Positions 16,761 to 44,535 of a stretch of DNA of 64,000 nucleotides are shown here, piece after piece. Within the stretch, counting starts at the first letter, position 1. Each line of letters opens with the position of its first letter. The notes beneath the pieces were generated by a model. The model was not told the DNA's origin, made no database searches, and saw only the letters and a program-made list of their open reading frames with translations. The position numbers and the translations under genes were made by a program. The DNA comes from Cafeteria roenbergensis. Lineage: Eukaryota > Sar > Bigyra > Bicosoecida > Cafeteriaceae. Location: positions 434,001 to 498,000 of the forward strand of contig VLTN01000021.1 in the NCBI GenBank assembly GCA_008330645.1, read 5' to 3'.

Positions 16761-17105
16761 GGTGCGGGGGCCGGCTTCTCTGGAGACGGGCCGGAGTGCG
16801 CTGGCTGCGCGTCTGCGCGGGGCGCATGTGAGCAGCTGATCGCAACCCGATGGCCGATCGCTGCCCCTCGGCGGGCGGGGCAGTCTGGCCAGCTGCCGGC
16901 CAGCACGCGGGCTGGTTGCAAGCGGCCCGTTCGCGGCAACGACCCGCACGCCGGACCGCGCGCCGCAGGCAGCGGGCGCACGCCGCTCCCGTCGGTCGGG
17001 GTATCGTGCACTTCTTGTTGCTCGGGGGCGAGGCCTTTTCGTGACCGCGCGCGCTCGGCAAACCGCCCCGCGCTTGCCGGCCAACGGACTGGTCCGAAAA
17101 ATAAA
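16761..17105. other. divergent intergenic region, YeeE/YedE and CCDC39 genes
   Basis: 345 bp shared upstream region. No TATA box. The sequence becomes A-rich just before the CCDC39 ATG (AAAAATAAAATGG). Confidence 0.5.
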
Positions 17106-20100
17106 ATGGCGGCTGCCGGGCCAGACGACTACGACGAGGGGCTGGGCGGCGAGAGCCACGACGACATGGGCGTGGGGGCCGGTGCTGCCTATGACGGGGC
17201 CGGGGCCGAGGCGGGCGCAGGGGCAGGCAGGCCGCGCTGGGCCGGCGCGGCGGACGACCCGCTGCAGGCCGAGGCCGAGGCCGGGGCCGGAGGGGCCATT
17301 GGGGGCGAGGCCGGCGCCGCCATCGAGGCCGCGCTTGCTGGGGTGGACCACGAGGACGACATGGAGGACCTGGACCACGAGCTGCCCGAGTTTGCCTCCA
17401 AGGAGGCCCGGGACACGATGGCCGCCATTCACGCGACCGAAGCCAAGGTTGAGCGCGCGGAGGAGGCCGCTGCCGCCCACAGAGAGCGCATCCGCGTGAT
17501 GGAGGAGCACCTCGCGAACGTGAAGCAGGAGGTGTCTCACACCGAGGCCGTGCTGGCATCGCGGAAGAAGGAGCTCGCAAGCGAGGACCACCTCAAGCAG
17601 CTGGCCGAGCGGGAGATCGGCAGGATCCGGCAGGAGCTCAAGGAGCTCGAGACGCGCGGAGAGGACGTGGCGGACAAGGTGGCCGCCACCCAGGCCGACA
17701 TCCACAAGGGCACCGCTCGGCTGGAGGCGGTGCAAGAGGAGCTGCACGTCACGCTCGAAGACCTCAAGGCCTGGACCGAGGCCCGGCGGCAGAAGGACGA
17801 GGACAACAAGGCGCTTGAGCGCTACACCAAGGCGGACGAGGGCAAGCTGAAGGAGCTGAGCATGGCCCTGGAGCGCCTGACGCAGCAGGTGGCGAGCAAG
17901 AAGCGGGCCCTGGAGGAGGCCACGACGGAGACGGCGGCCAAGCAAATCGAGCTGGACAAGGCAGCGGACGACTTTCACGCGCTGCACCAGGAGCGGGGCA
18001 AGCTGCTCAAGCAGGTGGACGACGCCGTGGCCAGCATTCGGGGCCGCGACCGCGAGATCCTCGAGGCTAACGAGCGCGCTGCCGAGGGCAAGCGCGTCCT
18101 CGAGACGCGCAAGGCCGAGATCCGCGCCAAGGCGGAGATGCTCGAGGGCCTCGAGGTGGAGAACGGCGAGGCGGAGCGGCTCAACGGGGACCTCGCCCGC
18201 AGGGTGGGCGCCCACCGCGAGCAGCTCCGCGCGGCCCAGGAGGCGCTGCGGGAGCTCGAGGACGAGGCGGAGCTGAACAAGAGCGAGCTCGGCAAGGCGG
18301 CCGCCCAGCTGGGCAAGAGCCGGTCCGAGCTCGACTCGCTGCGGGCCCAGAAGGAGGCGTACGAGCAGCGGCTGGAGGCCGCGGTGGCGAAGGAGGCCGC
18401 CGTCGTGGCCAGCCGCGAAAAGGCAAAGGGCGAGGCAACCAAGCTCGAGGGCGCGGCGGAGCGCCGGGAGGCCGACCTCAAGGCGCAGGAGGCCCGCCTC
18501 GTCTCGTCCGAGCGGGAGCTGGAGCAGGCCAAGGCCAAGCTCTTCAAGGAGTCGCAGCGCCGGGCAGAGCTCGTTCGCGAGGAGGGGGTGCTCAGGGCCG
18601 AGATCAGCGGCGCAGAGTCCGCGGCCAAGAACCTCTCCACAAAAATGCGGCAGCTGGACGCCGACGCCGCGCGGCAGGCGGAGCTGCTGTACGCGGCCGA
18701 GTTCCAGATTCAGGCCATGGAGCGCAAGCTCGCCCGCGTCAAGGGCGAGGTGAGCGACGAGGAGCGGAAGCGCCTCGAGGCGCGCATCGCCGACCTCAAC
18801 CTGGACCTGGGCACATCCGAGGGGCTCAAGGCGAAGCTCGAGGCGCAGCTGAAGCAGCTGGCGGACGAGCAGAGGAGGGTGCAGCGCCGCAGGGAGTCGC
18901 TCGAGGCGGACCTGACGGCCCTCCACGGCACGCTGGCGGAGCTCCGCCTCCAGACCAGCGCGGGCGAGACCCAGCTCGCCGCGGCCGTCAAGGGCCGCGA
19001 GGAGGCGCAGGTGGCCCACGACATCGTCAAGCTGGACGTGCGGCGCCTGCGAGAGGCGCTGACGTCCAAGACGGACGAGGTCTTCGGGCTCGAGAACCGC
19101 CACCAGCAGCTGCAGCTCTCCATCGCAGAGCGACGCAAGGAAATCGAGGTGCACACCAAGCTGCAGCGGGCCCAGGCCAAGCTCGCCGAGGAGGAGCGGC
19201 ACCGCGTCGCCCTGGACCTGCGCAAGCGCGAGGCCCGCGTTGCCGGCCTGCAGCGCAAGTACGACGCGCTCTGCGCCAAGATGCGGGGCGCGTCGGACGG
19301 CGACGACGACGACGGCGAGCCCAAGACGCAAGCCTACTTTGTGATCAAGGCCGCTCAGCAGCGGGAAGAGCTCCAGCGGGAAGGGGACGAGCTCAACGCG
19401 GCCGTGCTCACGGCGGAGCGCGAGGCGCGGGCCCTCACGGCGACACTGGCGCAGCTGCAGCGGCGCAACACGGCTTACCGCGAGAGCTTTCAAAAGGCGG
19501 ACCCGCGGTCCCGCGACGCCGAGACGGTGGCCACTCTCGAGACTCTCGGGAAGGACTCAACGGAGGCCATGTACCGGCGCAAGCGGGAGCTGCAGGACAC
19601 CGCAGCGGCCACGGGCGAGGCCAAGGCCCGGGCCGCCGATCTCGCCCAGCGCCGCGCCGCCCTCCAAAGCCAGCTGCAGCGTCTGCGTGGGATCGCGGCG
19701 GACGTGCAGGCTCAGCGGGACGACCAGGTGGCCGCTGTCGAGGAGGCCAAGGCCGCCGTCAGGCAGGCCGTCCAGGAGCTCCGCAGGGCGGCCCCGCCCA
19801 GCTCTGTTCCCGCCCGTGTGGCGCCCTCTGGCGGAGACGGCGGCGACGACAGCGACGGCGACCGCGACGGCGCCGCTGGCGCCGAGGCCGAGGGAAAGGA
19901 AGCCGTTGGCGACGTCGGCGTGGGCGCCGAAGCCACGGCCGGGGAGCTCCGCGTGAAGGCTGCAGCGATGGAGCACGGCAACGCGAGCGTCCTCTTCACG
20001 CTGGGGCAGCTCGCGAGGGAGTTCCCGCAGCTCACAGCGCCGCTCCGGGCCGCGCTGCGGCGCAAGGGGCTGCAGATTCCGGCGCGCGTGCCGAAGCGCA

Positions 20101-20264
20101 CAGCGGCGTCGACGGCGGCGTCGCTGCCTATGCCGGACGGCGGGCGGGGCGCAGCTGCCGCCGCCTCGGCCGGGGGCCCTCGAGGCGCGGGGCCAAGCCG
20201 CGAGGCCTCCAGTGGCGCGGCTGCCCCAGGCGTCGCAGTCCGCACTTTCGACCTGCACGTTTGA
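17106..20264 (+). CDS. CCDC39: CCDC39/FAP59, axonemal 96-nm ruler coiled-coil protein
   Basis: 1052 aa, almost entirely coiled coil after an acidic, Gly/Ala-rich N-terminus. Several stretches follow CCDC39 closely: HLANVKQEVSHTEAV, AEREIGRIRQELKELE, LERLTQQVASKKR, QIELDKAADDFHALHQER, YAAEFQIQAMERKLARVKGE, and near residue 739 KTQAYFVIKAAQQREELQRE. With CCDC40, CCDC39 forms the molecular ruler that sets 96-nm spacing on cilia doublets and is needed to place inner dynein arms and the nexin-dynein regulatory complex. Human CCDC39 is 941 aa; the extra length is the N-terminus and a Ser/Ala-rich tail. Single exon. ATG 17106 sits in an A-rich context. The gene implies a motile flagellum. Confidence 0.9.
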   Translation: MAAAGPDDYDEGLGGESHDDMGVGAGAAYDGAGAEAGAGAGRPRWAGAADDPLQAEAEAGAGGAIGGEAGAAIEAALAGVDHEDDMEDLDHELPEFASKEARDTMAAIHATEAKVERAEEAAAAHRERIRVMEEHLANVKQEVSHTEAVLASRKKELASEDHLKQLAEREIGRIRQELKELETRGEDVADKVAATQADIHKGTARLEAVQEELHVTLEDLKAWTEARRQKDEDNKALERYTKADEGKLKELSMALERLTQQVASKKRALEEATTETAAKQIELDKAADDFHALHQERGKLLKQVDDAVASIRGRDREILEANERAAEGKRVLETRKAEIRAKAEMLEGLEVENGEAERLNGDLARRVGAHREQLRAAQEALRELEDEAELNKSELGKAAAQLGKSRSELDSLRAQKEAYEQRLEAAVAKEAAVVASREKAKGEATKLEGAAERREADLKAQEARLVSSERELEQAKAKLFKESQRRAELVREEGVLRAEISGAESAAKNLSTKMRQLDADAARQAELLYAAEFQIQAMERKLARVKGEVSDEERKRLEARIADLNLDLGTSEGLKAKLEAQLKQLADEQRRVQRRRESLEADLTALHGTLAELRLQTSAGETQLAAAVKGREEAQVAHDIVKLDVRRLREALTSKTDEVFGLENRHQQLQLSIAERRKEIEVHTKLQRAQAKLAEEERHRVALDLRKREARVAGLQRKYDALCAKMRGASDGDDDDGEPKTQAYFVIKAAQQREELQREGDELNAAVLTAEREARALTATLAQLQRRNTAYRESFQKADPRSRDAETVATLETLGKDSTEAMYRRKRELQDTAAATGEAKARAADLAQRRAALQSQLQRLRGIAADVQAQRDDQVAAVEEAKAAVRQAVQELRRAAPPSSVPARVAPSGGDGGDDSDGDRDGAAGAEAEGKEAVGDVGVGAEATAGELRVKAAAMEHGNASVLFTLGQLAREFPQLTAPLRAALRRKGLQIPARVPKRTAASTAASLPMPDGGRGAAAAASAGGPRGAGPSREASSGAAAPGVAVRTFDLHV

Positions 20265-24385: not shown

Positions 24386-27300
24386 ATGACGTCTGTTGAG
24401 CGCGCCTTCGCAGACAGCGCTGCAGAGCTGTCATCGCGAAACTCTGCCAGAACCGCGCCCAGATCGCGCCATGCCCGGAACCCTAAGGCAACAGCCAACC
24501 ACAGCTCTCCGAGCAAGAGGCGACGCCCGGGTCCTCGGGCCTCTCGACAGGCGCGCCAGCTTGTCGTGCCAAGCGCAGACAGCGCGTCCTTGGCAATGCC
24601 TGGGTCGCGAGCCTCGTCAAGAGGGCGGGCCGCGCAATCTGAATCGCTCCAGCGCGAGAACGCAGCACTGCGAGCCGAGGTACTCAGCCTGACCTCTCGA
24701 AACGACGCCATTCGGGGCAGGCTGAGGGAGGCAGACCGGCGGCGAGAGCGCGCGGAGGCGGCAGCACAAACGCTCGAGGTGAGTTCGCATTGCGCGTCGG
24801 TCGTGCCGCGATGCGCAGGATTCGCCGCCCACTAGCACGCTTGTTTCCTTGGCCCGCCTCTGTTTCGCCATGGCAGTCCAAAGTCCACGACGCGCCGGTC
24901 GCTGCTCCAGTGGAGGCAGCAGCTGCGGCTAAACCGCCTCGAGTTCTCGCGTCCTCGTCAGCTCGCTCCTCGTCCGATGGCTACTCCTCCAAGGGGTCGA
25001 GCAGGAAGCGGCATAGTGCCACACAAGCCAGTGAGTCATGATCCTATCCGCAGGGGGCACAGTGGGAGTCGTGCTGGCTCCGGCCGCCACGCCCCCCGAC
25101 GAGAGCGTGGGCGCCACCGCCGCCGACCCGACGCTGCAAGTCTTCCGATCCTTGCAGGTGGCAGGTCAGGCAGCCCAGGACGGCTTGGGGCTCTGTTTGC
25201 TCCCATGCACCCTGAGAGAAAGGCGCTGCAGCAGCTCATCGACGCGATCGCTGGCGGCCGGGGCAGAGATGCCGGCGACGCCGCGTCCCCAGCGTCGGCG
25301 GAGCCTGTCAGTTTGCTGGGGCGGATCCTATCCGCTGAGGACTCTGTGCACGACGCAATTGCCCGGCTCGACAACCTGAGTGGACTCGGGGCCAGTGCCT
25401 CAAGCCCCAGCCAAGGCGCTGACGGCGCCGGGGAGGCATCGCCTTCTGCAAGAGAGCCCAGTGCAAGCCTCGCTCAAGCCGTCAATCGAGTCGACAGAGC
25501 GTTGTCCAAGACCCTGCGCGACCTGGCAGAGTCGCAGCGGCGTCTGGATTCGCCCGACTTGAGCGCCCAGGCTGGGAAGCTGCTGACCAACACACCGGGC
25601 AGCCCAGAGGACGAGCCTCAGCCGACGTGTTCGGCCCTCCAGAGCGAGCTTGTTCGGTTGGGCATCGAGCTGGCAAACCGCGATGAGCAGCTGGAGGCTG
25701 TCCGGGAGGCCTGCCGACAGGCAAACGAGGCGGCGGACGCAGCAGCCGCAGGGCTTGCGAAAGCAGCCTCCGATGCTGCGCTGATGCAAGATGAACTGGC
25801 CACGGCGAGGCTTGAGCGAGCGCAGTCTCTAGTCGACGCAGCCCAAGTCCGTGCCGAGGCAGATGCCCAAGTGGAGGACTTACGGCAGACGATGCAACAC
25901 GTCATCGAGCGTGCCCGGTCGCACTTGCAAGGCGTAACGGATACAGCGAAGGCCGAGCAACGCGAACTTGTTCGTGCGCAGCAGCAGCAAGTTGCTGCGT
26001 TGCAAAAGAGCTACTCAGCGACCGTGAGCGTGCAGCGAAACGAGCTTCATGTGGCCGTCCTTGCCCACGAGAAGCTAAAGAGGCGCACAGCGTTCGTCGC
26101 CTGGAGGTCGGAGGCGCATATTTCAAAGTGGGCCAACATCACTGGACGATTGGCTGGCTCACGAAGCTTGGCCAAGTCCCAACGCGAAGCCTTCCGGATG
26201 CTCAGGCAGCATCAACTACAGCGGGCAACAGCGCGCAGGGGTTTGGCGGCCTTGGAACGTTGGGTCAAGGGACGGACAACCCGATTGGGGTTCGCAGCAT
26301 GGAGGTTGACTGCGCAGAAGTTGGCTGACGAGGAGCAGCGAGGAGAGCATGAGCGCGAAGCGAAGGAACATCGCAGGCGAGCAGTCGAGGCTATCGAGCG
26401 CGTCAGAAAGCGCAGTCTCAAGAGCAGAGTTATGACGAGCTGGAGAGTCTGCAGCAACGCGGCAGCCAGTCGCAGATCCGGGAACGAGGAAGCGAAAATT
26501 GAACAGGAGCGACTGATGGACAGGGCCAAAAGAGCAGAAGCTCAAGCTGCTGTCGAAGCCAAAATGTCCATCGAAGCAAAGATGGCGATGGAGGCCGCCG
26601 CGGAGGCGGAGCGCCGGCGGATGGGCGAGGACCTGGCGCGGGCCAAGGAGGCGCACGCGGCCGAGCTGGCAGCCCAGACCGAGCGCATGCAGGCGAAGCA
26701 GCAGGTGCTCCTCCGGCGGTACACGGCCAGGATGCAGTCCGGCTCCCTGGCCAGCGCCATGGCCGCGTGGCGGGAGGCGACGGACGCGCGGCGCACGGCG
26801 CGGCGGGTGATGAGCCGCTTCGTGAAGCGGCACGCGCGGCAGGAGCTGGCGTTCGGACTGTCGCGCTGGCGGGAGGCGACGCGGCAGCTTCGGGAGGCGA
26901 GCCTGGCCGCGGAGGCCAGGCAGGCGATGGAGGCCGCCGCGGAGGCGGAGCGCCGGCGGATGGGCGAGGACCTGGCGCGGGCCAAGGAGGCGCACGCGGC
27001 CGAGCTGGCAGCCCAGACCGAGCGCATGCAGGCGAAGCAGCAGGTGCTCCTCCGGCGGTACATGGCCAGGATGCAGTCCGGCTCCCTGGCCAGCGCCATG
27101 GCCGCGTGGCGGGAGGCGACGGACGCGCGGCGCACGGCGCGGCGGGTGATGAGCCGCTTCGTGAAGCGGCACGCGCGGCAGGAGCTGGCGTTCGGACTGT
27201 CGCGCTGGCGGGAGGCGACGCGGCAGCTTCGGGAGGCGAGCCTGGCCGCGGAGGCCAGGCAGGCGATGGAGGGCGTCGCGGAGGCGGAGCGCCGGCGGAT

Positions 27301-30300
27301 GGGCGAGGACCTGGCGCGGGCCAAGGAGGCGCACGCGGCCGAGCTGGCAGCCCAGACCGAGCGCATGCAGGCGAAGCAGCAGGTGCTCCTCCGGCGGTAC
27401 ATGGCCAGGATGCAGTCCGGCTCCCTGGCCAGCGCCATGGCCGCGTGGCGGGAGGCGACGGACGCGCGGCGCACGGCGCGGCGGGTGATGAGCCGCTTCG
27501 TGAAGCGGCACGCGCGGCAGGAGCTGGCGTTCGGACTGTCGCGCTGGCGGGAGGCGACGCGGCAGCTTCGGGAGGCGAGCCGGGCCGCGGAGGCCAGGCA
27601 GGCGATGGAGGCCGCCGCGGAGGCGGAGCGCCGGCGGATGGGCGAGGACCTGGCGCGGGCCAAGGAGGCGCACGCGGCCGAGCTGGCAGCCCAGACCGAG
27701 CGCATGCAGGCGAAGCAGCAGGTGCTCCTCCGGCGGTACATGGCCAGGATGCAGTCCGGCTCCCTGGCCAGCGCCATGGTCACGTGGCGGGAGGCGACGG
27801 ACGCGCGGCGCACGGCGCGGCGGGTGATGAGCCGCTTCGTGAAGCGGCACGCGCGGCAGGAGCTGGCGTTCGGACTGTCGCGCTGGCGGGAGGCGACGCG
27901 GCAGCTTCGGGAGGCGAGCCTGGCCGCGGAGGCCAGGCAGGCGATGGAGGCCGCCGCGGAGGCGGAGCGCCGGCGGATGGGCGAGGACCTGGCGCGGGCC
28001 AAGGAGGCGCACGCGGCCGAGCTGGCAGCCCAGACCGAGCGCATGCAGGCGAAGCAGCAGGTGCTCCTCCGGCGGTACATGGCCAGGATGCAGTCCGGCT
28101 CCCTGGCCAGCGCCATGGTCACGTGGCGGGAGGCGACGGACGCGCGGCGCACGGCGCGGCGGGTGATGAGCCGCTTCGTGAAGCGGCACGCGCGGCAGGA
28201 GCTGGCGTTCGGACTGTCGCGCTGGCGGGAGGCGACACGGCAGCTTCGGGAGGCGAGCCGGGCCGCGGAGGCCAGGCAGGCGATGGAGGGCGCCGCGGAG
28301 GCCAGGCAGGCGATGGAGGCCGCCGCGGAGGCGGAGCGCCGGCGGATGGGCGAGGACCTGGCGCGGGCCAAGGAGGCGCACGCGGCCGAGCTGGCAGCCC
28401 AGACCGAGCGCATGCAGGCGAAGCAGCAGGTGCTCCTCCGGCGGTACATGGCCAGGATGCAGTCCGGCTCCCTGGCCAGCGCCATGGTCACGTGGCGGGA
28501 GGCGACGGACGCGCGGCGCACGGCGCGGCGGGTGATGAGCCGCTTCGTGAAGCGGCACGCGCGGCAGGAGCTGGCGTTCGGACTGTCGCGCTGGCGGGAG
28601 GCGACGCGGCAGCTTCGGGAGGCGAGCCTGGCCGCGGAGGCCAGGCAGGCGATGGAGGCCGCCGCGGAGGCGGAGCGCCGGCGGATGGGCGAGGACCTGG
28701 CGCGGGCCAAGGAGGCGCACGCGGCCGAGCTGGCAGCCCAGACCGAGCGCATGCAGGCGAAGCAGCAGGTGCTCCTCCGGCGGTACATGGCCAGGATGCA
28801 GTCCGGCTCCCTGGCCAGCGCCATGGTCACGTGGCGGGAGGCGACGGACGCGCGGCGCACGGCGCGGCGGGTGATGAGCCGCTTCGTGAAGCGGCACGCG
28901 CGGCAGGAGCTGGCGTTCGGACTGTCGCGCTGGCGGGAGGCGACGCGGCAGCTTCGGGAGGCGAGCCTGGCCGCGGAGGCCAGGCAGGCGATGGAGGGCG
29001 CCGCGGAGGCCAGGCAGGCGATGGAGGCCGCCGCGGAGGCGGAGCGCCGGCGGATGGGCGAGGACCTGGCGCGGGCCAAGGAGGCGCACGCGGCCGAGCT
29101 GGCAGCCCAGACCGAGCGCATGCAGGCGAAGCAGCAGGTGCTCCTCCGGCGGTACATGGCCAGGATGCAGTCCGGCTCCCTGGCCAGCGCCATGGCCGCG
29201 TGGCGGGAGGCGACGGACGCGCGGCGCACGGCGCGGCGGGTGATGAGCCGCTTCGTGAAGCGGCACGCGCGGCAGGAGCTGGCGTTCGGACTGTCGCGCT
29301 GGCGGGAGGCGACGCGGCAGCTTCGGGAGGCGAGCCTGGCCGCGGAGGCCAGGCAGGCGATGGAGGCCGCCGCGGAGGCGGAGCGCCGGCGGATGGGCGA
29401 GGACCTGGCGCGGGCCAAGGAGGCGCACGCGGCCGAGCTGGCAGCCCAGACCGAGCGCATGCAGGCGAAGCAGCAGGTGCTCCTCCGGCGGTACATGGCC
29501 AGGATGCAGTCCGGCTCCCTGGCCAGCGCCATGGCCGCGTGGCGGGAGGCGACGGACGCGCGGCGCACGGCGCGGCGGGTGATGAGCCGCTTCGTGAAGC
29601 GGCACGCGCGGCAGGAGCTGGCGTTCGGACTGTCGCGCTGGCGGGAGGCGACGCGGCAGCTTCGGGAGGCGAGCCGGGCCGCGGAGGCCAGGCAGGCGAT
29701 GGAGGCCGCCGCGGAGGCGGAGCGCCGGCGGATGGGCGAGGACCTGGCGCGGGCCAAGGAGGCGCACGCGGCCGAGCTGGCAGCCCAGACCGAGCGCATG
29801 CAGGCGAAGCAGCAGGTGCTCCTCCGGCGGTACATGGCCAGGATGCAGTCCGGCTCCCTGGCCAGCGCCATGGTCACGTGGCGGGAGGCGACGGACGCGC
29901 GGCGCACGGCGCGGCGGGTGATGAGCCGCTTCGTGAAGCGGCACGCGCGGCAGGAGCTGGCGTTCGGACTGTCGCGCTGGCGGGAGGCGACACGGCAGCT
30001 TCGGGAGGCGAGCCTGGCCGCGGAGGCCAGGCAGGCGATGGAGGCCGCCGCGGAGGCGGAGCGCCGGCGGATGGGCGAGGACCTGGCGCGGGCCAAGGAG
30101 GCGCACGCGGCCGAGCTGGCAGCCCAGACCGAGCGCATGCAGGCGAAGCAGCAGGTGCTCCTCCGGCGGTACATGGCCAGGATGCAGTCCGGCTCCCTGG
30201 CCAGCGCCATGGTCACGTGGCGGGAGGCGACGGACGCGCGGCGCACGGCGCGGCGGGTGATGAGCCGCTTCGTGAAGCGGCACGCGCGGCAGGAGCTGGC

Positions 30301-33300
30301 GTTCGGACTGTCGCGCTGGCGGGAGGCGACACGGCAGCTTCGGGAGGCGAGCCTGGCCGCGGAGGCCAGGCAGGCGATGGAGGGCGCCGCGGAGGCCAGG
30401 CAGGCGATGGAGGCCGCCGCGGAGGCGGAGCGCCGGCGGATGGGCGAGGACCTGGCGCGGGCCAAGGAGGCGCACGCAGCCGAGCTGGCAGCCCAGACCG
30501 AGCGCATGCAGGCGAAGCAGCAGGTGCTCCTCCGGCGGTACATGGCCAGGATGCAGTCCGGCTCCCTGGCCAGCGCCATGGTCACGTGGCGGGAGGCGAC
30601 GGACGCGCGGCGCACGGCGCGGCGGGTGATGAGCCGCTTCGTGAAGCGGCACGCGCGGCAGGAGCTGGCGTTCGGACTGTCGCGCTGGCGGGAGGCGACG
30701 CGGCAGCTTCGGGAGGCGAGCCTGGCCGCGGAGGCCAGGCAGGCGATGGAGGCCGCCGCGGAGGCGGAGCGCCGGCGGATGGGCGAGGACCTGGCGCGGG
30801 CCAAGGAGGCGCACGCGGCCGAGCTGGCAGCCCAGACCGAGCGCATGCAGGCGAAGCAGCAGGTGCTCCTCCGGCGGTACATGGCCAGGATGCAGTCCGG
30901 CTCCCTGGCCAGCGCCATGGTCACGTGGCGGGAGGCGACGGACGCGCGGCGCACGGCGCGGCGGGTGATGAGCCGCTTCGTGAAGCGGCACGCGCGGCAG
31001 GAGCTGGCGTTCGGACTGTCGCGCTGGCGGGAGGCGACGCGGCAGCTTCGGGAGGCGAGCCTGGCCGCGGAGGCCAGGCAGGCGATGGAGGCCGCCGCGG
31101 AGGCGGAGCGCCGGCGGATGGGCGAGGACCTGGCGCGGGCCAAGGAGGCGCACGCGGCCGAGCTGGCAGCCCAGACCGAGCGCATGCAGGCGAAGCAGCA
31201 GGTGCTCCTCCGGCGGTACATGGCCAGGATGCAGTCCGGCTCCCTGGCCAGCGCCATGGTCACGTGGCGGGAGGCGACGGACGCGCGGCGCACGGCGCGG
31301 CGGGTGATGAGCCGCTTCGTGAAGCGGCACGCGCGGCAGGAGCTGGCGTTCGGACTGTCGCGCTGGCGGGAGGCGACGCGGCAGCTTCGGGAGGCGAGCC
31401 TGGCCGCGGAGGCCAGGCAGGCGATGGAGGCCGCCGCGGAGGCGGAGCGCCGGCGGATGGGCGAGGACCTGGCGCGGGCCAAGGAGGCGCACGCGGCCGA
31501 GCTGGCAGCCCAGACCGAGCGCATGCAGGCGAAGCAGCAGGTGCTCCTCCGGCGGTACATGGCCAGGATGCAGTCCGGCTCCCTGGCCAGCGCCATGGCC
31601 GCGTGGCGGGAGGCGACAGACGCGCGGCGCACGGCGCGGCGGGTGATGAGCCGCTTCGTGAAGCGGCACGCGCGGCAGGAGCTGGCGTTCGGACTGTCGC
31701 GCTGGCGGGAGGCGACGCGGCAGCTTCGGGAGGCGAGCCTGGCCGCGGAGGCCAGGCAGGCGATGGAGGCCGCCGCGGAGGCGGAGCGCCGGCGGATGGG
31801 CGAGGACCTGGCGCGGGCCAAGGAGGCGCACGCGGCCGAGCTGGCAGCCCAGACCGAGCGCATGCAGGCGAAGCAGCAGGTGCTCCTCCGGCGGTACATG
31901 GCCAGGATGCAGTCCGGCTCCCTGGCCAGCGCCATGGTCACGTGGCGGGAGGCGACGGACGCGCGGCGCACGGCGCGGCGGGTGATGAGCCGCTTCGTGA
32001 AGCGGCACGCGCGGCAGGAGCTGGCGTTCGGACTGTCGCGCTGGCGGGAGGCGACGCGGCAGCTTCGGGAGGCGAGCCTGGCCGCGGAGGCCAGGCAGGC
32101 GATGGAGGCCGCCGCGGAGGCGGAGCGCCGGCGGATGGGCGAGGACCTGGCGCGGGCCAAGGAGGCGCACGCGGCCGAGCTGGCAGCCCAGACCGAGCGC
32201 ATGCAGGCGAAGCAGCAGGTGCTCCTCCGGCGGTACATGGCCAGGATGCAGTCCGGCTCCCTGGCCAGCGCCATGGCCGCGTGGCGGGAGGCGACAGACG
32301 CGCGGCGCACGGCGCGGCGGGTGATGAGCCGCTTCGTGAAGCGGCACGCGCGGCAGGAGCTGGCGTTCGGACTGTCGCGCTGGCGGGAGGCGACGCGGCA
32401 GCTTCGGGAGGCGAGCCTGGCCGCGGAGGCCAGGCAGGCGATGGAGGCCGCCGCGGAGGCGGAGCGCCGGCGGATGGGCGAGGACCTGGCGCGGGCCAAG
32501 GAGGCGCACGCGGCCGAGCTGGCAGCCCAGACCGAGCGCATGCAGGCGAAGCAGCAGGTGCTCCTCCGGCGGTACATGGCCAGGATGCAGTCCGGCTCCC
32601 TGGCCAGCGCCATGGCCGCGTGGCGGGAGGCGACGGACGCGCGGCGCACGGCGCGGCGGGTGATGAGCCGCTTCGTGAAGCGGCACGCGCGGCAGGAGCT
32701 GGCGTTCGGACTGTCGCGCTGGCGGGAGGCGACGCGGCAGCTTCGGGAGGCGAGCCGGGCCGCGGAGGCCAAGCAGGCGATGGAGGCCGCCGCGGAGGCG
32801 GAGCGCCGGCGGATGGGCGAGGACCTGGCGCGGGCCAAGGAGGCGCACGCGGCCGAGCTGGCAGCCCAGACCGAGCGCATGCAGGCGAAGCAGCAGGTGC
32901 TCCTCCGGCGGTACATGGCCAGGATGCAGTCCGGCTCCCTGGCCAGCGCCATGGCCGCGTGGCGGGAGGCGACGGACGCGCGGCGCACGGCGCGGCGGGT
33001 GATGAGCCGCTTCGTGAAGCGGCACGCGCGGCAGGAGCTGGCGTTCGGACTGTCGCGCTGGCGGGAGGCGACGCGGCAGCTTCGGGAGGCGAGCCTGGCC
33101 GCGGAGGCCAGGCAGGCGATGGAGGCCGCCGCGGAGGCCAGGCAGGCGATGGAGGCCGCCGCGGAGGCGGAGCGCCGGCGGATGGGCGAGGACCTGGCGC
33201 GGGCCAAGGAGGCGCACGCGGCCGAGCTGGCAGCCCAGACCGAGCGCATGCAGGCGAAGCAGCAGGTGCTCCTCCGGCGGTACATGGCCAGGATGCAGTC

Positions 33301-36300
33301 CGGCTCCCTGGCCAGCGCCATGGTCACGTGGCGGGAGGCGACGGACGCGCGGCGCACGGCGCGGCGGGTGATGAGCCGCTTCGTGAAGCGGCACGCGCGG
33401 CAGGAGCTGGCGTTCGGACTGTCGCGCTGGCGGGAGGCGACGCGGCAGCTTCGGGAGGCGAGCCTGGCCGCGGAGGCCAGGCAGGCGATGGAGGCCGCCG
33501 CGGAGGCGGAGCGCCGGCGGATGGGCGAGGACCTGGCGCGGGCCAAGGAGGCGCACGCGGCCGAGCTGGCAGCCCAGACCGAGCGCATGCAGGCGAAGCA
33601 GCAGGTGCTCCTCCGGCGGTACATGGCCAGGATGCAGTCCGGCTCCCTGGCCAGCGCCATGGCCGCGTGGCGGGAGGCGACAGACGCGCGGCGCACGGCG
33701 CGGCGGGTGATGAGCCGCTTCGTGAAGCGGCACGCGCGGCAGGAGCTGGCGTTCGGACTGTCGCGCTGGCGGGAGGCGACGCGGCAGCTTCGGGAGGCGA
33801 GCCTGGCCGCGGAGGCCAGGCAGGCGATGGAGGCCGCCGCGGAGGCGGAGCGCCGGCGGATGGGCGAGGACCTGGCGCGGGCCAAGGAGGCGCACGCGGC
33901 CGAGCTGGCAGCCCAGACCGAGCGCATGCAGGCGAAGCAGCAGGTGCTCCTCCGGCGGTACATGGCCAGGATGCAGTCCGGCTCCCTGGCCAGCGCCATG
34001 GCCGCGTGGCGGGAGGCGACGGACGCGCGGCGCACGGCGCGGCGGGTGATGAGCCGCTTCGTGAAGCGGCACGCGCGGCAGGAGCTGGCGTTCGGACTGT
34101 CGCGCTGGCGGGAGGCGACGCGGCAGCTTCGGGAGGCGAGCCGGGCCGCGGAGGCCAAGCAGGCGATGGAGGCCGCCGCGGAGGCGGAGCGCCGGCGGAT
34201 GGGCGAGGACCTGGCGCGGGCCAAGGAGGCGCACGCGGCCGAGCTGGCAGCCCAGACCGAGCGCATGCAGGCGAAGCAGCAGGTGCTCCTCCGGCGGTAC
34301 ATGGCCAGGATGCAGTCCGGCTCCCTGGCCAGCGCCATGGCCGCGTGGCGGGAGGCGACGGACGCGCGGCGCACGGCGCGGCGGGTGATGAGCCGCTTCG
34401 TGAAGCGGCACGCGCGGCAGGAGCTGGCGTTCGGACTGTCGCGCTGGCGGGAGGCGACGCGGCAGCTTCGGGAGGCGAGCCTGGCCGCGGAGGCCAGGCA
34501 GGCGATGGAGGCCGCCGCGGAGGCCAGGCAGGCGATGGAGGCCGCCGCGGAGGCGGAGCGCCGGCGGATGGGCGAGGACCTGGCGCGGGCCAAGGAGGCG
34601 CACGCGGCCGAGCTGGCAGCCCAGACCGAGCGCATGCAGGCGAAGCAGCAGGTGCTCCTCCGGCGGTACATGGCCAGGATGCAGTCCGGCTCCCTGGCCA
34701 GCGCCATGGTCACGTGGCGGGAGGCGACGGACGCGCGGCGCACGGCGCGGCGGGTGATGAGCCGCTTCGTGAAGCGGCACGCGCGGCAGGAGCTGGCGTT
34801 CGGACTGTCGCGCTGGCGGGAGGCGACGCGGCAGCTTCGGGAGGCGAGCCGGGCCGCGGAGGCCAGGCAGGCGATGGAGGCCGCCGCGGAGGCGGAGCGC
34901 CGGCGGATGGGCGAGGACCTGGCGCGGGCCAAGGAGGCGCACGCGGCCGAGCTGGCAGCCCAGACCGAGCGCATGCAGGCGAAGCAGCAGGTGCTCCTTC
35001 GGGAGGCGAGCCTGGCCGCGGAGGCCAGGCAGGCGATGGAGGCCGCCGCGGAGGCGGAGCGCCGGCGGATGGGCGAGGACCTGGCGCGGGCCAAGGAGGC
35101 GCACGCGGCCGAGCTGGCAGCCCAGACCGAGCGCATGCAGGCGAAGCAGCAGGTGCTCCTCCGGCGGTACATGGCCAGGATGCAGTCCGGCTCCCTGGCC
35201 AGCGCCATGGCCGCGTGGCGGGAGGCGACGGACGCGCGGCGCACGGCGCGGCGGGTGATGAGCCGCTTCGTGAAGCGGCACGCGCGGCAGGAGCTGGCGT
35301 TCGGACTGTCGCGCTGGCGGGAGGCGACGCGGCAGCTTCGGGAGGCGAGCCTGGCCGCGGAGGCCAGGCAGGCGATGGAGGCCGCCGCGGAGGCGGAGCG
35401 CCGGCGGATGGGCGAGGACCTGGCGCGGGCCAAGGAGGCGCACGCGGCCGAGCTGGCAGCCCAGACCGAGCGCATGCAGGCGAAGCAGCAGGTGCTCCTC
35501 CGGCGGTACATGGCCAGGATGCAGTCCGGCTCCCTGGCCAGCGCCATGGCCGCGTGGCGGGAGGCGACGGACGCGCGGCGCACGGCGCGGCGGGTGATGA
35601 GCCGCTTCGTGAAGCGGCACGCGCGGCAGGAGCTGGCGTTCGGACTGTCGCGCTGGCGGGAGGCGACGCGGCAGCTTCGGGAGGCGAGCCTGGCCGCGGA
35701 GGCCAGGCAGGCGATGGAGGCCGCCGCGGAGGCGGAGCGAGAGCGGGTAGAGTTTTTGCAGCACAAAGTGGCCGAGGTGACTGCTCAGGCCCAAAGAACT
35801 GTTGCTGCCCGTGATCTCGTGCACCAGGTGTCTGCTGCAAGGAAAAATGCCGCTTTGTCCTCGGCACTTTCGGATGTGGCGGATGCCAAGAAGCTCGTTG
35901 CAAAGATGCCTTCCATCGTCCAGGCAGCTGTCTCTTCGGCAATGCAGGCTGCTACCCGCGAAGCTGCCTCAAAGGAGTCTGGCTTCGTCCGGGCATGGCT
36001 TGCGCGGGAAGAGTCCTTCCGCCACAAGTGGCGCCTTCGCGAAAAGGAAGTTGGACAGCAGAGCGTGTCATCCCCGTCTTGTCGTGGTTTGCTGGCCTCT
36101 GCGCGACTTGCTCGCACGCAGCCGAAGGCCGCGAAGAAACAGCTTGGAGACGATGCAGCAGGCGATGACCCACTCTTTGGGGGCCGTCATCTCGATGCGG
36201 AGAATCTCGATGTGGAGAATCTTGCTCTCAGCGCTGTGGAAAGCCCAGTGCACGTTCCCTGGCCCTCCGACTTTGACGGAGTTCACAGTGCTTCTGTGGA

Positions 36301-36652
36301 AGGCCCCGGATCCGTGCACCTCCAAGCAGCGCCAACTCGGCACCTTCAGCTCGCTGACCAGGCTGGAGCAGGCCCCGACTCGTCCGCACTTGCACACCCA
36401 ATCGGGTCTTCATGTTCGCAAATTCCAATGCGCACTGAAGCGAGTGGGAGCAAGCAAGGGCTTCCAGCCGAGCTCGACAGCTGTGTGGCATCGATTGCTC
36501 GTTCTGTCCCTCGTCTCCGCGAGGCCTTTCGCGCCGCCGTTCACGAAGACGCTGGCCCAAGCGTGAGCGCTCTTGAGCCAGTTGAGACTGAAATCTTTGA
36601 ATTGACTGCGCTTGTCGACCGCGCAAAGGTTCTCCTGGAAGACGCGGTGTAG
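24386..36652 (+). CDS. giant Sfi1-like (predicted centrin-binding) repeat protein, three exons
   Basis: Reconstructed as join(24386..24778, 24877..25030, 25158..36652), 4013 aa. Introns of 98 and 127 nt both start GTGAGT and end GGCAG and TTGCAG; phases match. Residues 1-650 hold a Ser/Arg-rich head, coiled coil, and single motifs AFVAWRSE, GFAAWRLT and VMTSWRV. Residues 660-3701 are 27 tandem 113-aa units. In each, residues 1-45 are charged helix, then LASAMAAWREAT and LAFGLSRWREAT follow with tryptophans at 61 and 94, exactly 33 apart. Sfi1 repeats are about 33 residues with a conserved Trp and hydrophobic spacing, each binding a centrin, so a basal-body or contractile-fibre scaffold is the best guess. 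The tail (3702-4013) has more coiled coil and disorder. Centrin binding is inferred, not shown. Confidence 0.75.
26588..35713 (+). repeat. tandem array of 27 units, 339 bp each, in frame
   Basis: Units start at 26588, 26927, 27266, 27605, 27944, 28313, 28652, 29021, 29360 and so on to 35375. Twenty-six are full 339-bp units. Unit 25 (34874-35035) keeps only 162 bp. Five units (starts 28313, 29021, 30407, 33149, 34535) are preceded by an extra 30 bp. The sum 26x339 + 162 + 5x30 equals the observed 9126 bp. A 28th unit is only begun, at 35714. Units differ at only a few positions: GCCGCGTGG versus GTCACGTGG (AAW or VTW), Leu or Arg before AAEA, Arg or Lys in EARQA, and two or three silent sites. 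Confidence 0.97.
31763..34534 (+). repeat. higher-order duplication of four units (2 x 1386 bp)
   Basis: Units 16-19 (31763-33148) and 20-23 (33149-34534) show the same order of variants: VTW/Leu; AAW with a silent GACAGA site/Leu; AAW/Arg with Lys; AAW/Leu plus a 30-bp insert. This marks a block duplication by unequal exchange. Confidence 0.85.
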
Positions 36653-36849: not shown

Positions 36850-39800
36850 TCAATCAGGTGTCATCCCGCGACGGTGGGATACTACGCATGACATGGTCCA
36901 CCGAAGCAGCTCACTTGCGGTTATCATCCCGACCACTCGCAGCCGAGGATCCCCAGACTTTCGCCTGTGCTGCGTGGCGGTCTCTGGGACCAACCCGCTG
37001 GCGGAAATGGAGCAGCCAGCAGCGGGGCATTCGCCACTTCGGATGGATGCTTCCGCGGCCCGCAACATACCGGCTGGAGTCGGTTCCACGGTGCCCAAAG
37101 CTTGCCTGCGAGCCACGCAGGCAGCTTGGGGCAACGTGAGCCGGCCTTGGATCCCGTCGACAGGGTGGCCCCAGTCGTCGGCCTCTCCATCTGATTCCAC
37201 GAGGACGACTTCGTTGGCCTGGTGTGCGATCATCCTCTCCACCACGTCGTTGACGGTGTCACTGAGTCTTGCGCACACTGCTCCCGAGCCCATGCCACTG
37301 TCCTTTTGCAGGCCAGCTCCGTAGCCCACCAGCCTCAGAGCCAGGCTTGCTGGGTGCAGCCGAATCATGGAGTGGGACTGCCATGGCGCCTGCGCGGCGC
37401 CTCTCCACTCGGCTGCAACGAGCGATGGTTGCAGTCGCTCTTGCCCGACGACAGCACCTCCGTACGCATAACACGCCGCCGCTGAAGCAGCAGTCGGGAG
37501 CCAAGTCCAGAGTGCTTGGCGCGGCTCCGCCACAAGGCAAGCGGACGACGCTTGCCAGGCGCGTGCTGTTGCCGCCAATACCTCATCGCTGACGACAGGA
37601 CCTGCCAGACCTTTCTCTGCGCTGACAGAAAAGCCAAACGCGGATCCGTTGGATCCAGCTGAGTCAAGTGACTCTGGGTCCCCTCGACGGGAGCCTGGCA
37701 AAACACGCAGACCTTTCCGATCCGAGCCGCTGCGAGTCGCAGCTTCAGTCGGTGCCTGAGAGCGAGAAGCATGCTGCGCCGCCGCCGGAACGGGGCCGCT
37801 TTGCGCTTTGGCCGATGCAGCGCGAACTGCCAGGTCGTGCGGCAAAAGGAGCTGGTGGGGCAGCGCTGCCGCCGGCTTCCAATGCGACGACGCACCCGCC
37901 GCAGGCCCTGCCAGCCCCACTGCTGCTAGCCCCTCAGACGGGGCGGGTGCCACGCCGAGGAACGCCCCAACCGGCTGCAGGAGGGACGCGAGAGCATCGG
38001 ACGGTGCAGCCTCGGCCAAGGCCATGACGTGCTCCAGGCGAAGCACCCCGAGAACCGTGCCGGAAGGGTCGGATGCCTTGGAATGCACGCCATCGGATGC
38101 AGCGGTGTGGCGGACCCCTGCAGCGGCGGCAGCAGCAGCAGCAGCAGCCGCGCCGCGGCCAGCGGGCTTGCCGCGGCCAATTTCCTCTTCCAGATGCCGG
38201 CGCTGGCGCACAGCCGCCTCAGCTGCCGAAATGGGCCACTCAGCATCCAGGGCTTCGCCGCACGCGTCTCGAGTCGGGCAGGAGCGACACAGCCAGCCAA
38301 GGGCGGACTGTTCGGTCGCCGCTACTGCTTCCGCAGCCGCAGCTGCCGCGGCCTCTGCGGCCCCGGCCAGCTCGCGGGCGGCGTCGGCAGGTGCGCCTTC
38401 CTCGGCAGGCTCGTCAAAGTCATCCCCTGTGGCGGGATCGGCCGAAGCGTCTTGGGCAGCCACCTGCAGCGACCCTTCCGGCAGCTTGCCAAACACTTCA
38501 ATCAGCGCTGCTGCCGGCACCAGCGTTTCGGATTGGGGGCCGAGCACGGCCAACGGGCCTTGGCGGGCAGATGGCGGGTCAATGCTGTCAGGCGCGGGGC
38601 GGAAAAGGATGCGATCGTCGTCCACGGTGCCGGGCTTCACATTGCTGCGCCTTGGCCACATTGCCGAAACAGGTGGCGGGCCCCACAGTCTCCAGCCCCG
38701 TCCCCCCGCAACTGCACCTGCGTCGCTGGGGCTCAGGTCTGGCGCATCCAGCGCGTCGATCTCACCGCGCGCTTGCTTGGGCTGCCTGCTGGCCCGCTGG
38801 CGCGCGCTCGCCAAGCCTGCAGCGCCGCCCTGGAGTCGACCGCCGAAGGTGGCTCCCGGCCCGCGTGCGGGGGGGCCAGGGCCAGGGCCAGGGCCAGGCG
38901 CCGGCGCCTTGGCAGCGGCTGCTGCGGCAGCCGGGGCCTGCTGCGCACGCAGCCGCGCCCACTCCGGGTGGCTTGCCGTCACAGCCATCGCAGCGTCAGG
39001 GACCGACGCTCCGCGCGACACTGCTCGAAGCAGCTCGGTCCTGCTCGTCCACGCAGCCTCGACCCTCGCGGCTTCCAGGGCAGCGGCCGCCTCTTCTGTG
39101 TCCACCGCGTCTGCAGGCGAGGCCTGAACCACCACAGCCGCGGGCAGCCCCCTGATCAGGATGGACAGAAGCCCCTCCAGCACGGTGGCGGTGTGTGGAA
39201 CCGTGAGCGGAAGCGCCCTGTCGTGCGCGCCCATGGCCGACACGAGGCGCTGCAAGTCCCCCCGCGTCGATCTCATGCGTCTGACGGGAGCAGGCTGCGG
39301 CGGCGCGGCCCGGGCGGACCCAGCCCTTGCCCGGGGGCGCCTCACACCGCTGCTGGGAAGCGCCTGACTCTCCGGCTCAGGCTCCCTGTCCTCGCAAGCC
39401 CGAGCCACTGCCGCTGCCTCGTGGTGAGCGACCTCCGCTGCCGTCACAGGCGACGTGGGCTCCTCTGGCTGGCCGTCCGCAGCGGCCCCCGGCGCGCCCG
39501 CCGCTCCCACCGAGTCGCGGCCCAGTGGGCGGTGTGGCCGGCGCGCCGCCTGAGACGCCGGGGCCCTGCCGCGCCCGCGCGCCGCTGGGCCGCTCGCAGT
39601 GGCGCGAGGGCTGCCAACGGGAGAGCGCGACTCATCGTCATCGCCATCCGCCACCGCAAGCGCTGCGCCACTTGATAACGTGCACGCCACGACGAAGTGG
39701 TCGGGCTTGGCTCTACCGGCCGCAAACCAGCCCACCTCCGACGGCGCGCGAAGCGCGAGCCGTCGCACCGACCCCGCCACCGCATAACCGTCCCCAGGAC

Positions 39801-42800
39801 CGTCGAGGCCCCACCTGCCGAGAGTAGTCCTGCGCAGCGGGAGCCAGCGGGCGCCCCTGAGAGTGAGCCCGGGAGCCTCCAGGAGCAGCCGGAGGGCGTG
39901 AAGGTGCCTGACGAGCGCCTGCGGCTGGTTGCGCCCTGTGGCGCACGTGGTATCTGCGCAGATGGCGACTGCCTCCTCGCCCGACGCCAGCGCCGACCAC
40001 GCCGCGGCCATGCACTGGTCGGGCATCAGCGGGCGCCACAGTCGCGCAGCTGGGCTCTCCTCCTCGCCCCCGAACTGACTCAAGCCGAGCGCAACGGCCT
40101 GGGCCACGCGCTGGGCGCGCGGGGATTCGGGCTCGCTGGTCGCCCCCCTGCCCTTCGCGCGCCCTTCGCGCGCCTGCTGCTGCTGCTGCAGTTGCTGCTT
40201 CCGCTGCAGCTGCTTCTGCTGCGCTTGGTGCCTCGCGGCGGACGCAGCGGCCGCAGCGAGGGGCGTCGCCTCCAGCGCCGCCAAGGCGGGCGCGACCGCC
40301 CACTCCTGCCACGCCTTGGTCAAAACGTCCCGAAGTTGCCCAAGCGGCGCTGCGCTCAGCAGCGCTCGCGGGCTGCTTGCGCCAGGCTCACCCCGCGTCG
40401 CCGGGCAGTACGGCGGCCTGGGAACCGGTGGCAGCGGAATTTTGTCGTGAACCTCTGCAAGCCGTGCCAGGTCCAGCGCCGAGCAGGGGCCGCTGGACGC
40501 GGGGTGCATCCAGGGAGCGTCCAGCCAAGGCGCGTCCTGGAGCGTCTCCAGGTCGAGCTCGTGCGGCTTGGCGGCTGTCAGCCCGGCCACAGAGTCGGCG
40601 GCCGCAGTGGCACCAGCGCGTTGGGCGTCGGACGGCGTCGGCGCAGCGCCAGCGACGGGCGACTGGGCGGTCTTGGCCGAGTGGCCTGCGGAGCCGCGCC
40701 TGCCCGAGGAGGCGGGCTGGCGCTGTCGGCGGAGCGGCGAGGGGGAGGCCACCGCGTGCCTCGCGGCGCTGCGGCGAGAGGCAGAGCTCGCTCCGCCCGG
40801 GGAGCGCGGCGACGTCGCTGCCGACCTGGCAGCGCGGCCCGCGTGGCCTTTGCTGGAGGCCGAGCGAGGCGTCCCCGCGGCGGTTCGTCTGGCTGCGGGC
40901 GACCTGCCGGCCGGGCGCGCGGCAGAGCCGACGGGGTGCAAGTCCGCCGCCGGGGGCAAGTCGGTGCCCGGCGCCTGCTGCTGCGCCACAAAGGCCACCC
41001 ATGGCGCGGGCGCCTCCAAGCGAGCCTGCTGGCGGCGCAGCCTCCGCTCCTCGAGACGGCGCCGGGTCGCGACCAGGTCCCAGTACTGGCGGTCCAGGTC
41101 GGCGCGGAGCTGCATGAGCCGGCGGGCGATCCCCGAGACGAGGAAACTGACGATTCCTCGAGCCGACAGCAGGCCGCGGCACTCTGCGGGGGGCGGGGCG
41201 GCAGCGGCGGCGGCGACTGGCGCCCGGCCTGCCAGCCGGCCCGCCCGAGGCGAGAGCCGGTGGCCGGCCGCGCTGGCCTCGCCGCCTGCCCGGGACGGCG
41301 GGCCACCCGACGGGGCGCGGGGCGGCAGCAGCGGTGTGGCCGTCACCACGGCGCAACGGGGCGCAAACAGGAGTGAAGAGGGCGGCGGTTGCGGCAGCAG
41401 CGCATCGGGAACGCGCTGCCCCGCCAGCAGCACCGCCCGGTGAAACCGCGCGCCCGCCTCCCCCATGACAGCCTCGACGGGGAAGGGGCGAGTGGCAGGG
41501 AGGCCAGCCCCCGACCACGCGCCGCTTGGCAGGGCGAGGAGAGCGCCGCCCGCCTCCGCGCCCAGCTCCTCCCGTAGGGCCACGGGGCCGGAGCTGGGGC
41601 CGGCATCGCGGGTGTTCCCGATGAGCTTGCTGTGAGAGGGCGCTGACACGAGCTTTCGGCCGCTCATCTGAGACGCGAAGCTGTCCTGAGAGGGGATTCC
41701 ACAGGCAGAGCTGCCTGCGGACCCTTCCGACGGCATCGCCACGTCCCACACTCCGCCGGCGAGGCCGGGGGCGGACGCCGCTGCGCGGGCGTTCAGGGCC
41801 GGGGCGGACCTCGCAGCTGCCGCTGCGGCCGTCGAGCCCATGGCCCCGTCACCGCGCCGGCTGCGGGAGGCGGGCCGTGACAGGTCCACGCGCTTCGCGC
41901 TGGCAGCGGCCCGTGCGCCGATGGTCAGGAGCGACTCTGTGTTGCCGTGCACGGGCGTGGCCGCTGAGAGCACCGCAGCCACGATGCGCCGCTCCTCCTG
42001 CGACACCGTGGCGCGGCCAGCGTGCCACGCAGCGTCGGCCAGCTCCACGGCGTCCAGCCCCGTGCCGCCCTCCGCCCCCTCTTGGAACGACACAGCCGCC
42101 CTCAGGAGGCCTCTCTGCGCCGCATCCGCCTGCAGCAGGGCGGGCGGCGCGTCGCCCGATCCGAGTCCGTCTTGCTCCACGGTCGCCGTGGCGGTCGCCG
42201 CCGCCGCCGCCGCCGCCGCCTCCAGCGACGCCTTCGCAGCCGCAGCCTCCTCTGCTGCCAGCGCCGTCACAGCACCCACCGCGCCCGGCTCCAGTCCCGC
42301 GCTCAGCCACCCGGGGATGGACGGCATCGCCGCCGCAGCGTCAGGCCAGCCGAAGCCGTCACCCGCTGCCGCCCCGCCCGCTCGCCTCACTTTCCGGCCG
42401 TAGCCATCGCCCCGGTCGCCGCTGCTGCTGCTGCTGCTGCTGCTGCTGCCGCTGCCGTCGCTGTCATCGATCCCCACGATGTCGGGGTCGTCGAGGGCCT
42501 GACGGTCATCCCCGCCGGCACGGGCGGCGGCCGTCACGTCGACGCCAGCGTCGCCTGCAGCCGCCCACAGGTCGGCTGAGGCAGGGGCAGTCGCGGTCGT
42601 CCCCAGTCCTCGCCGCCTCCCCGGCTGGCCCAACCCCCTGGCGGCGAAAGGGCGGCTGCGCCTCGGCGTGGCGCTGGCAAGGGCGCTGTCCAGCGCTGCC
42701 CTGTCCTGCACCTCGAAGCAATCCACAGCCACCGCGGGCGTGCCCAGCGTGACAGGGAAGAGCACCTCTGGCGAGGCGGCCGCCCCGATGTCGTAGGCAG

Positions 42801-44226: not shown

Positions 44227-44535
44227 GCGCACGGCCCTCCTCCACCCCTGCTCGCCTTTCGGCGGGCCGCGTGATCGGCGAGGCGCGCGTGAGGCGTTTC
44301 TCGGCAGCGCGAGCTTTGAGGGCAGAGGCCGTTGGCGCAGCTCTGGCCGCTTCCCAATGAACGGGGTTTCCGAACGCGCAAACAACGCAAACTCGAACAA
44401 AAATGCAATACGCACGGTGTGCTTAGGGCGTCGTTGCGGCGAGTAGTAGTGGTGGTGGTTGTGGTGGTGGCGGCGGCGGCGGTGCGCCAGGTGCCAATGT
44501 CCGGGCAAGGCGCAAATCGCCGCGCGGGGCTGCAG
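44227..44535. other. intergenic region with GTG/GGC repeat
   Basis: 309 bp between two minus-strand genes. It contains a degenerate GTG/GGC trinucleotide tract at about 44442-44487 and an A-rich stretch near 44390-44410. Presumed promoter of the EF-hand/CBS gene. Confidence 0.5.

Follow-up and report, generated by a model that had tools for sequence, protein, structure and literature searches.

The results of this analysis demonstrated that the window, i.e. the whole 64,000-nucleotide stretch of DNA analysed, carries a giant gene whose product contains an array of near-identical units with two tryptophan motifs in each full unit. We consider it fairly likely that this product is a giant Sfi1-like centrin scaffold, in which paired sites are set on 17-nm helical modules and each unit provides one good and one weaker site. 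An earlier note on this DNA had proposed a Sfi1-type centrin scaffold. Its triad, the 33-residue spacing, the predicted helix and the likeness of one motif (motif B) to known centrin sites agree with that proposal, and a set of 52 equal sites was not supported.

The uninterrupted open reading frame (ORF) of the giant gene was located at 24977-36652 (+) and comprised 3891 aa. The extent given earlier, 24386-36652, would fit a spliced gene and not one ORF, since a start at 24386 requires splicing. In the three-exon model, predicted exon 1 (24386-24778, +), which encodes the N-terminus, is an ORF that ends at a GTGAGT donor and joins in frame; predicted exon 2 (24877-25030, +) has a pyrimidine-rich acceptor and the other GTGAGT donor, also in frame; and predicted exon 3 (25158-36652, +) is an open frame that covers the N flank, the repeat array and a non-repeated C flank holding the stop codon (35726-36652, +). 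Other acceptors are possible for exon 2, and several models with alternative acceptors or with two exons keep the frame as well. The product of the spliced model has 4013 aa, with a mass of 451.2 kDa, a pI of 11.4 and an Arg content of 16.7%.

Coding on the + strand was deduced from the non-repeated flanks, which stay open, and not from codon use. No stops were present in the + frame of the flanks (480 + 308 codons), whose openness has a chance of ca. 4e-7 upstream and ca. 4e-5 downstream; the other five frames contained 6-11 stops in the upstream flank and 2-9 in the downstream flank. By codon score, the sense frame of the array (0.526) and one antisense frame (0.535) were alike. The flanks, when scored on the codon use of the neighbours, gave negative values (-0.311 and -0.256), unlike the neighbouring genes. 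Antisense ORFs of 3202 and 3074 aa were observed over the array (26216-35824, -), and these are regarded as by-products because the 339-bp period is a multiple of three. GC3 was 0.97 in the array (26600-35725) as against about 0.65 at 24977-26599 and 0.62 at 35600-36652, and GC-biased gene conversion during homogenisation would fit this jump.

The array (26600-35725, +; 3042 aa) consists of 27 units, 21 of 339 bp, five of 369 bp and one of 162 bp. The 27 near-identical units described before were therefore recovered as 27 unit starts, their lengths being 113 aa in 21 cases, 123 aa in five and 54 aa in one, instead of 113 aa throughout. The 54-aa remnant (34886-35047, +) is a truncated unit that has lost 59 aa in frame and has no Trp motifs, which leaves 26 full units. 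WREAT was found in 52 copies in the full units, and the two Trp residues were exactly 33 residues apart in 26 of 26, just as previously described. The distance from one Trp pair to the next was 80 residues in 19 of 25 gaps, in line with the earlier figure of about 80, and otherwise 90 residues (5/25), due to a 10-aa insert, or 134 residues (1/25), due to the 54-aa remnant. In their first 309 bp, the 26 full units had a mean pairwise DNA identity of 99.4%, with seven variable sites, four of which alter the protein and three of which are silent. The 27 units represent 15 distinct DNA sequences, a block of four units is repeated exactly (units 16-19 are the same as units 20-23), and the length changes of 30 and 177 bp preserve the frame. 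Recent duplication and homogenisation, rather than selection on every residue, are the best explanation of the near-identity. Since the copies were homogenised very recently, motifs A and B, the first and second Trp motif of the unit, amount to one observation each. When one unit, read as a circle, was shuffled 400,000 times, both Trp residues had hydrophobic residues at -7 and -3 and Lys or Arg at +1 in 19 shuffles, two of which also had the 33-residue spacing.

The published centrin-binding motif is Ax7LLx3F/Lx2WK/R with the triad L8-L4-W1 (PMC9406199, PMC5112337 and PMC8622359; these and the other papers are cited from excerpts). Eight of 15 binding peptides read from Table 2 of PMC8622359 were used as reference sites, namely R17 and R18 of human SFI1, R18 (with a Phe anchor) and R19 of yeast Sfi1, three sites of POC5 and one of GANP. 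XPC, AtRAD4, SAC3, SAC3B, KAR1, transducin beta and PRP40A were excluded beforehand, their orientation being opposite or unclear. The control set comprised 433 six-frame ORFs of at least 60 aa from the window outside the gene, with 83,116 positions, 1514 of them Trp-anchored. Motif B, HARQELAFGLSRWR, the first copy of which (LAFGLSRW) lies at 26846-26869 (+), occurs in 26 copies and has Leu at -7, Leu at -3, Trp and Arg at +1. Its matrix score of 12.58 bits exceeded the leave-one-out scores of six of the eight known sites (range 2.38 to 14.26) and was matched by none of 8595 positions in eight window ORFs and by two of the 83,116 positions in the 433 ORFs. With human R18 removed from the matrix, the score was 11.13, again matched by two of 83,116 positions. 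An ungapped comparison with human SFI1 R18 gave a score of 23 and seven identities besides the Trp; none of 94 control Trp sites and none of 2000 shuffles came as high, and the summed score over the eight sites was matched by one of 94 controls and 0.009 of the shuffles. In place of the consensus Ala at -16 and Leu at -8, motif B has Phe and Glu and motif A has Tyr and Ser; human R18 likewise has no consensus Ala at -16. Judged by its sequence, motif B is similar to centrin sites in the literature, with human SFI1 repeat 18 the closest, and the case at the motif level is good.

Motif A, with its first copy (LASAMAAW) at 26747-26770 (+), is also present in 26 copies and is a doubtful centrin-type site. 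It reads QSGSLASAMAAWR in 14 of 26 full units and AMVTWR (the VT form) in 12 of 26, with Leu at -7, Met at -3, Trp and Arg at +1. The matrix score of the form found in 14 units was 0.42, matched by 499 of 83,116 positions and 153 of 1514 Trp sites, and that of the VT form was -2.11, matched by 1214 and 294, respectively. The summed scores were matched by two of 94 controls and 0.057 of the shuffles and, for the VT form, by four of 94 and 0.12. The nearest known site was human R17, with five identities (1/94 controls, 0.017 of the shuffles), or four for the VT form (6/94, 0.096). The minimal motif [FLW]xxW[KR], which was used for Plasmodium PfSlp (PMC10180636), is not present in motif A. In the whole protein, it was found at 28 sites, the 26 copies of motif B and two in the N flank, which corresponds to 6.98 per 1000 aa as against 0.46 in the 433 control ORFs, none of which contained more than two copies. 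The relaxed triad fitted 52 of 52 array sites and the strict pattern L...[FL]..W[KR] 26 of 52, and Arg followed the Trp in 52 of 52. The control ORFs contained 32 Trp pairs 33 residues apart; both matrix scores were at least 0 in one of these pairs, and in two of 32 when POC5c was removed from the matrix. Since motif A is borderline and lacks [FLW]xxW[KR], a count of 26 good sites (motif B) and 26 doubtful ones (motif A) is fairer than the ca. 52 centrin sites claimed before, which were not supported as equal sites.

Diverged motifs were found in the N flank at 26045-26458 (+), with Trp codons at 26102, 26300 and 26441 and a Leu codon at 26201. Residues 376 (Trp), 409 (Leu) and 442 (Trp) of the ORF keep the 33/33 phase. 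Residue 489 (Trp) gave a summed score of 46 over the eight sites, which was the best of all (0/94 controls, 0.0016 of the shuffles), and that of residue 376 was matched by one of 94 controls and 0.021 of the shuffles; residues 409 and 442 had poor matrix scores (-3.81 and -1.7). Thus, two diverged flank sites also seem to resemble centrin sites.

AlphaFold2 single-sequence models were obtained for parts of the array and the N flank (326 and 315 residues) with moderate confidence (pLDDT 78 and 74; pTM 0.37 and 0.34). In the array model, one unbroken helix is predicted per repeat, starting at motif A and ending shortly before the next motif A, with a break at residues 48-49 of each unit (Gly-Ser of QSGS), where motif A begins; the N-flank model is also helical, with short interruptions. 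A fully helical unit would measure 17 nm and the array 456 nm at 0.15 nm per residue; the end-to-end length of yeast Sfi1 is given as 120 nm (PMC10180636). No 3.5-residue (heptad) hydrophobic periodicity was detected in the spacer, the pair or the unit, 0.35-0.82 of the shuffles reaching the observed power. A 3.67-residue signal was seen in the spacer when Ala was not counted (0.0095 of the shuffles), as one of 18 tests.

No Sfi1 family and no IQ-motif came up in Pfam when the queries were the complete ORF, the ORF of exon 1, one or two units, and either flank. Since five of five isolated known centrin-site peptides also gave no Pfam match, this silence carries little weight. A phmmer search of PDB with four units gave no match, and a profile built from the motifs of the protein itself (MAFFT-gapped alignment), searched against PDB, returned azoreductases and chance matches, with no Sfi1. 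As controls, two joined yeast Sfi1 peptides retrieved yeast Sfi1p (2gv5_C) and one chance match, and a profile of the eight peptides retrieved, at E values up to 10, only 2k2i_B (E 0.085) and 2gv5_C (E 1.2), both of which contain peptides used to train it. A HMMER profile with 12 columns, made from the eight known sites, was run on pieces of the gene and the 433 window ORFs and did not discriminate; motif B ranked only 8th, at 0.5 bits and below background matches, and was not among the 12 best matches listed when human R18 was left out. The check suggested in the earlier note, a profile search of a unit, returned no Sfi1 from Pfam; PDB and our own short profile gave no family match either. 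No relatives were confirmed among 189 pattern stretches found in prokaryote contigs with two units, or among the 17, 11 and 50 stretches found in viral contigs with two units, the C flank and part of the N flank, respectively.

A CCDC39/FAP59 gene (16560-20264, +; Pfam E 1.2e-134; best PDB match Flagellar-associated protein 59) lies 4 kb upstream of the giant gene on the same strand. CCDC39 is a coiled-coil protein of the ciliary axoneme, and its presence suggests that the organism probably builds motile flagella. Pfam matches of the 13 long ORFs outside the gene include, in addition to CCDC39, a DEAD helicase, a TFIIB zinc ribbon, a sub-threshold AP2 domain, an FAD oxidoreductase and an importin-5-like protein, and this neighbouring gene set looks eukaryotic. 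The GC content of the window was 63-79% per 2-kb block (roughly 72% overall), and searches of it for tRNAs and, at gathering scores, for Rfam families were negative. The ORF that adjoins the giant gene (36850-44508, -; 2552 aa) had no Pfam match at E 0.01 and contains one centrin-like peptide with a high matrix score. The ORF at 15354-19493 (-), which overlaps CCDC39 in antisense, has DUF6691 and Sulf_transp domains at its C-terminal end, and probably this end alone is real. Short tandem repeats with periods of 15 and 42 were located within long ORFs at 47800-47907 and 55956-56090. A role in the haptonema (PMC6398456) was set aside, as nothing in the window points to a haptophyte.

Centrins are acidic EF-hand proteins, and in a centrin scaffold they would clamp motif B along the Arg-rich helix via the Leu-Leu/Met-Trp triad. 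Motif A would then serve as a second, weaker or conditional partner site 33 residues before motif B. This is the spacing of Sfi1 repeats, over which adjacent centrins interact (PMC9406199, PMC5112337). Centrin pairs placed every ca. 17 nm over ca. 0.45 micrometre would form a chain of pairs, not a continuous centrin sleeve, and this chain could yield a centrin fibre connected to the base of the flagellum. The giant protein may be located at basal bodies, for which the nearby CCDC39 gene is the only local hint. Calcium may alter the occupancy of motif A or the centrin-centrin contacts, whereby the fibre would stiffen or shorten; a calcium-driven change has been proposed for the Paramecium lattice (PMC6189993). 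We regard as quite unlikely a bolder version, namely a calcium-driven contractile filament, perhaps outside ciliates, with centrins as spaced dyads in which B is constitutive and A conditional; ca. 26 near-identical 17-nm springs would act in series, and their number would drift through recent in-frame duplications, allowing the length and stroke of the filament to evolve quickly.

The motif data also bear on other explanations. The product may be a basic repeat protein that binds microtubules or the axoneme, comparable to the repetitive microtubule-associated proteins of trypanosomatids; its Trp motifs would then pack helices or contact tubulin rather than bind centrin. The pI of 11.4, the 16.7% Arg, the near-identity of the repeats and the nearby CCDC39 gene would suit such a protein, but the high Arg content also follows from the ca. 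72% GC of the window, the relaxed centrin triad with a basic +1 residue fits all array sites and motif B resembles human SFI1 R18, which makes this explanation rather unlikely. It is very unlikely that the scaffold serves calmodulin or a lineage-specific calcium-binding protein in place of centrin: a basic amphipathic helix with Trp is a calmodulin-type ligand too, but the 8-4-1 spacing and the 33-residue pairing are Sfi1 features and Pfam finds no IQ-motif. A precedent is Tetrahymena Tcb2, which indicates that non-centrin EF-hand proteins also build calcium-driven networks (PMC12661445).

It appears highly improbable that the product is a coiled-coil or rootlet-like fibre protein that associates with itself and resembles Sfi1 by chance, because neither spacer, pair nor unit has a 3.5-residue signal and a heptad register would be broken by unit lengths of 113 and 123 aa, even though the long Ala/Glu/Arg helix with charged spacers and the weak profile statistics are compatible with it. 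Finally, the open antisense frames and the uninformative or negative codon scores might indicate non-coding DNA, either a minisatellite whose period is a multiple of three by chance or an assembly artefact. This is barely conceivable in view of the flanking + frame that is open against chance, the in-frame length changes and splice sites, and the motif fit.

The putative centrin scaffold shares with yeast and human Sfi1 the 8-4-1 triad with Trp, the basic residue after it, the 33-residue spacing within the pair and the long helix. Yeast Sfi1 binds ca. 20 centrins and human SFI1 ca. 25, with gaps of 0-12 and 10 residues between repeats (PMC8622359). Unlike these, the sites of the giant protein form pairs at least 80 residues apart in near-identical units, and there was no family-level match. 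The contrast drawn earlier between spaced pairs and the continuous repeats of yeast Sfi1 was confirmed (33 residues within 26 of 26 pairs; 80, 90 or 134 between them). Since repeat continuity and the family match came out negative, the protein was not filed as a Sfi1 orthologue. By description, it also resembles the repeat scaffolds of Paramecium PtCenBP1 and the centrin-Sfi1 myonemes of Spirostomum; these are ciliate proteins, and it has been proposed that they hold many centrins on filaments that contract with calcium (PMC6189993, PMC12661445, PMC13035854). The Tetrahymena Sfr family likewise consists of Sfi1-repeat proteins, but from a ciliate, and 9 of 13 were reported at basal bodies (PMC5112337). 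Toxoplasma TgSFI1 (3903 residues, 438 kDa) is similar in its giant size and many Trp sites, with Trp in all of its 32 putative sites; its tested repeats vary in triad, affinity and calcium dependence (PMC9406199), in contrast to the giant protein, which repeats two site types almost unchanged. Plasmodium PfSlp (407 kDa) was called Sfi1-like on the basis of [FLW]xxW[KR], without sequence homology, and was recovered in centrin immunoprecipitation; unlike in the giant protein, no near-identical array is mentioned in the excerpts of that report (PMC10180636). Giant Sfi1-like proteins are thus already known from Toxoplasma, Plasmodium and protist myonemes, and the new part is the paired, spaced and recently homogenised units. 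No description of a paired, spaced, near-identical Sfi1-like array was found in the excerpts of the open-access literature, a scope outside which the primary papers on the ciliate proteins lie.

If the protein binds centrin, a GC-rich lineage that is probably flagellated would be added to the sources of giant Sfi1-like scaffolds. The near-identical repeat would then also offer a single two-site module for study in place of dozens of diverged sites. Calcium-gated and permanent sites have been reported for different repeats of TgSFI1 (PMC9406199), and with one good and one doubtful site per unit it can be tested directly whether a calcium-gated centrin site lies beside a permanent one.
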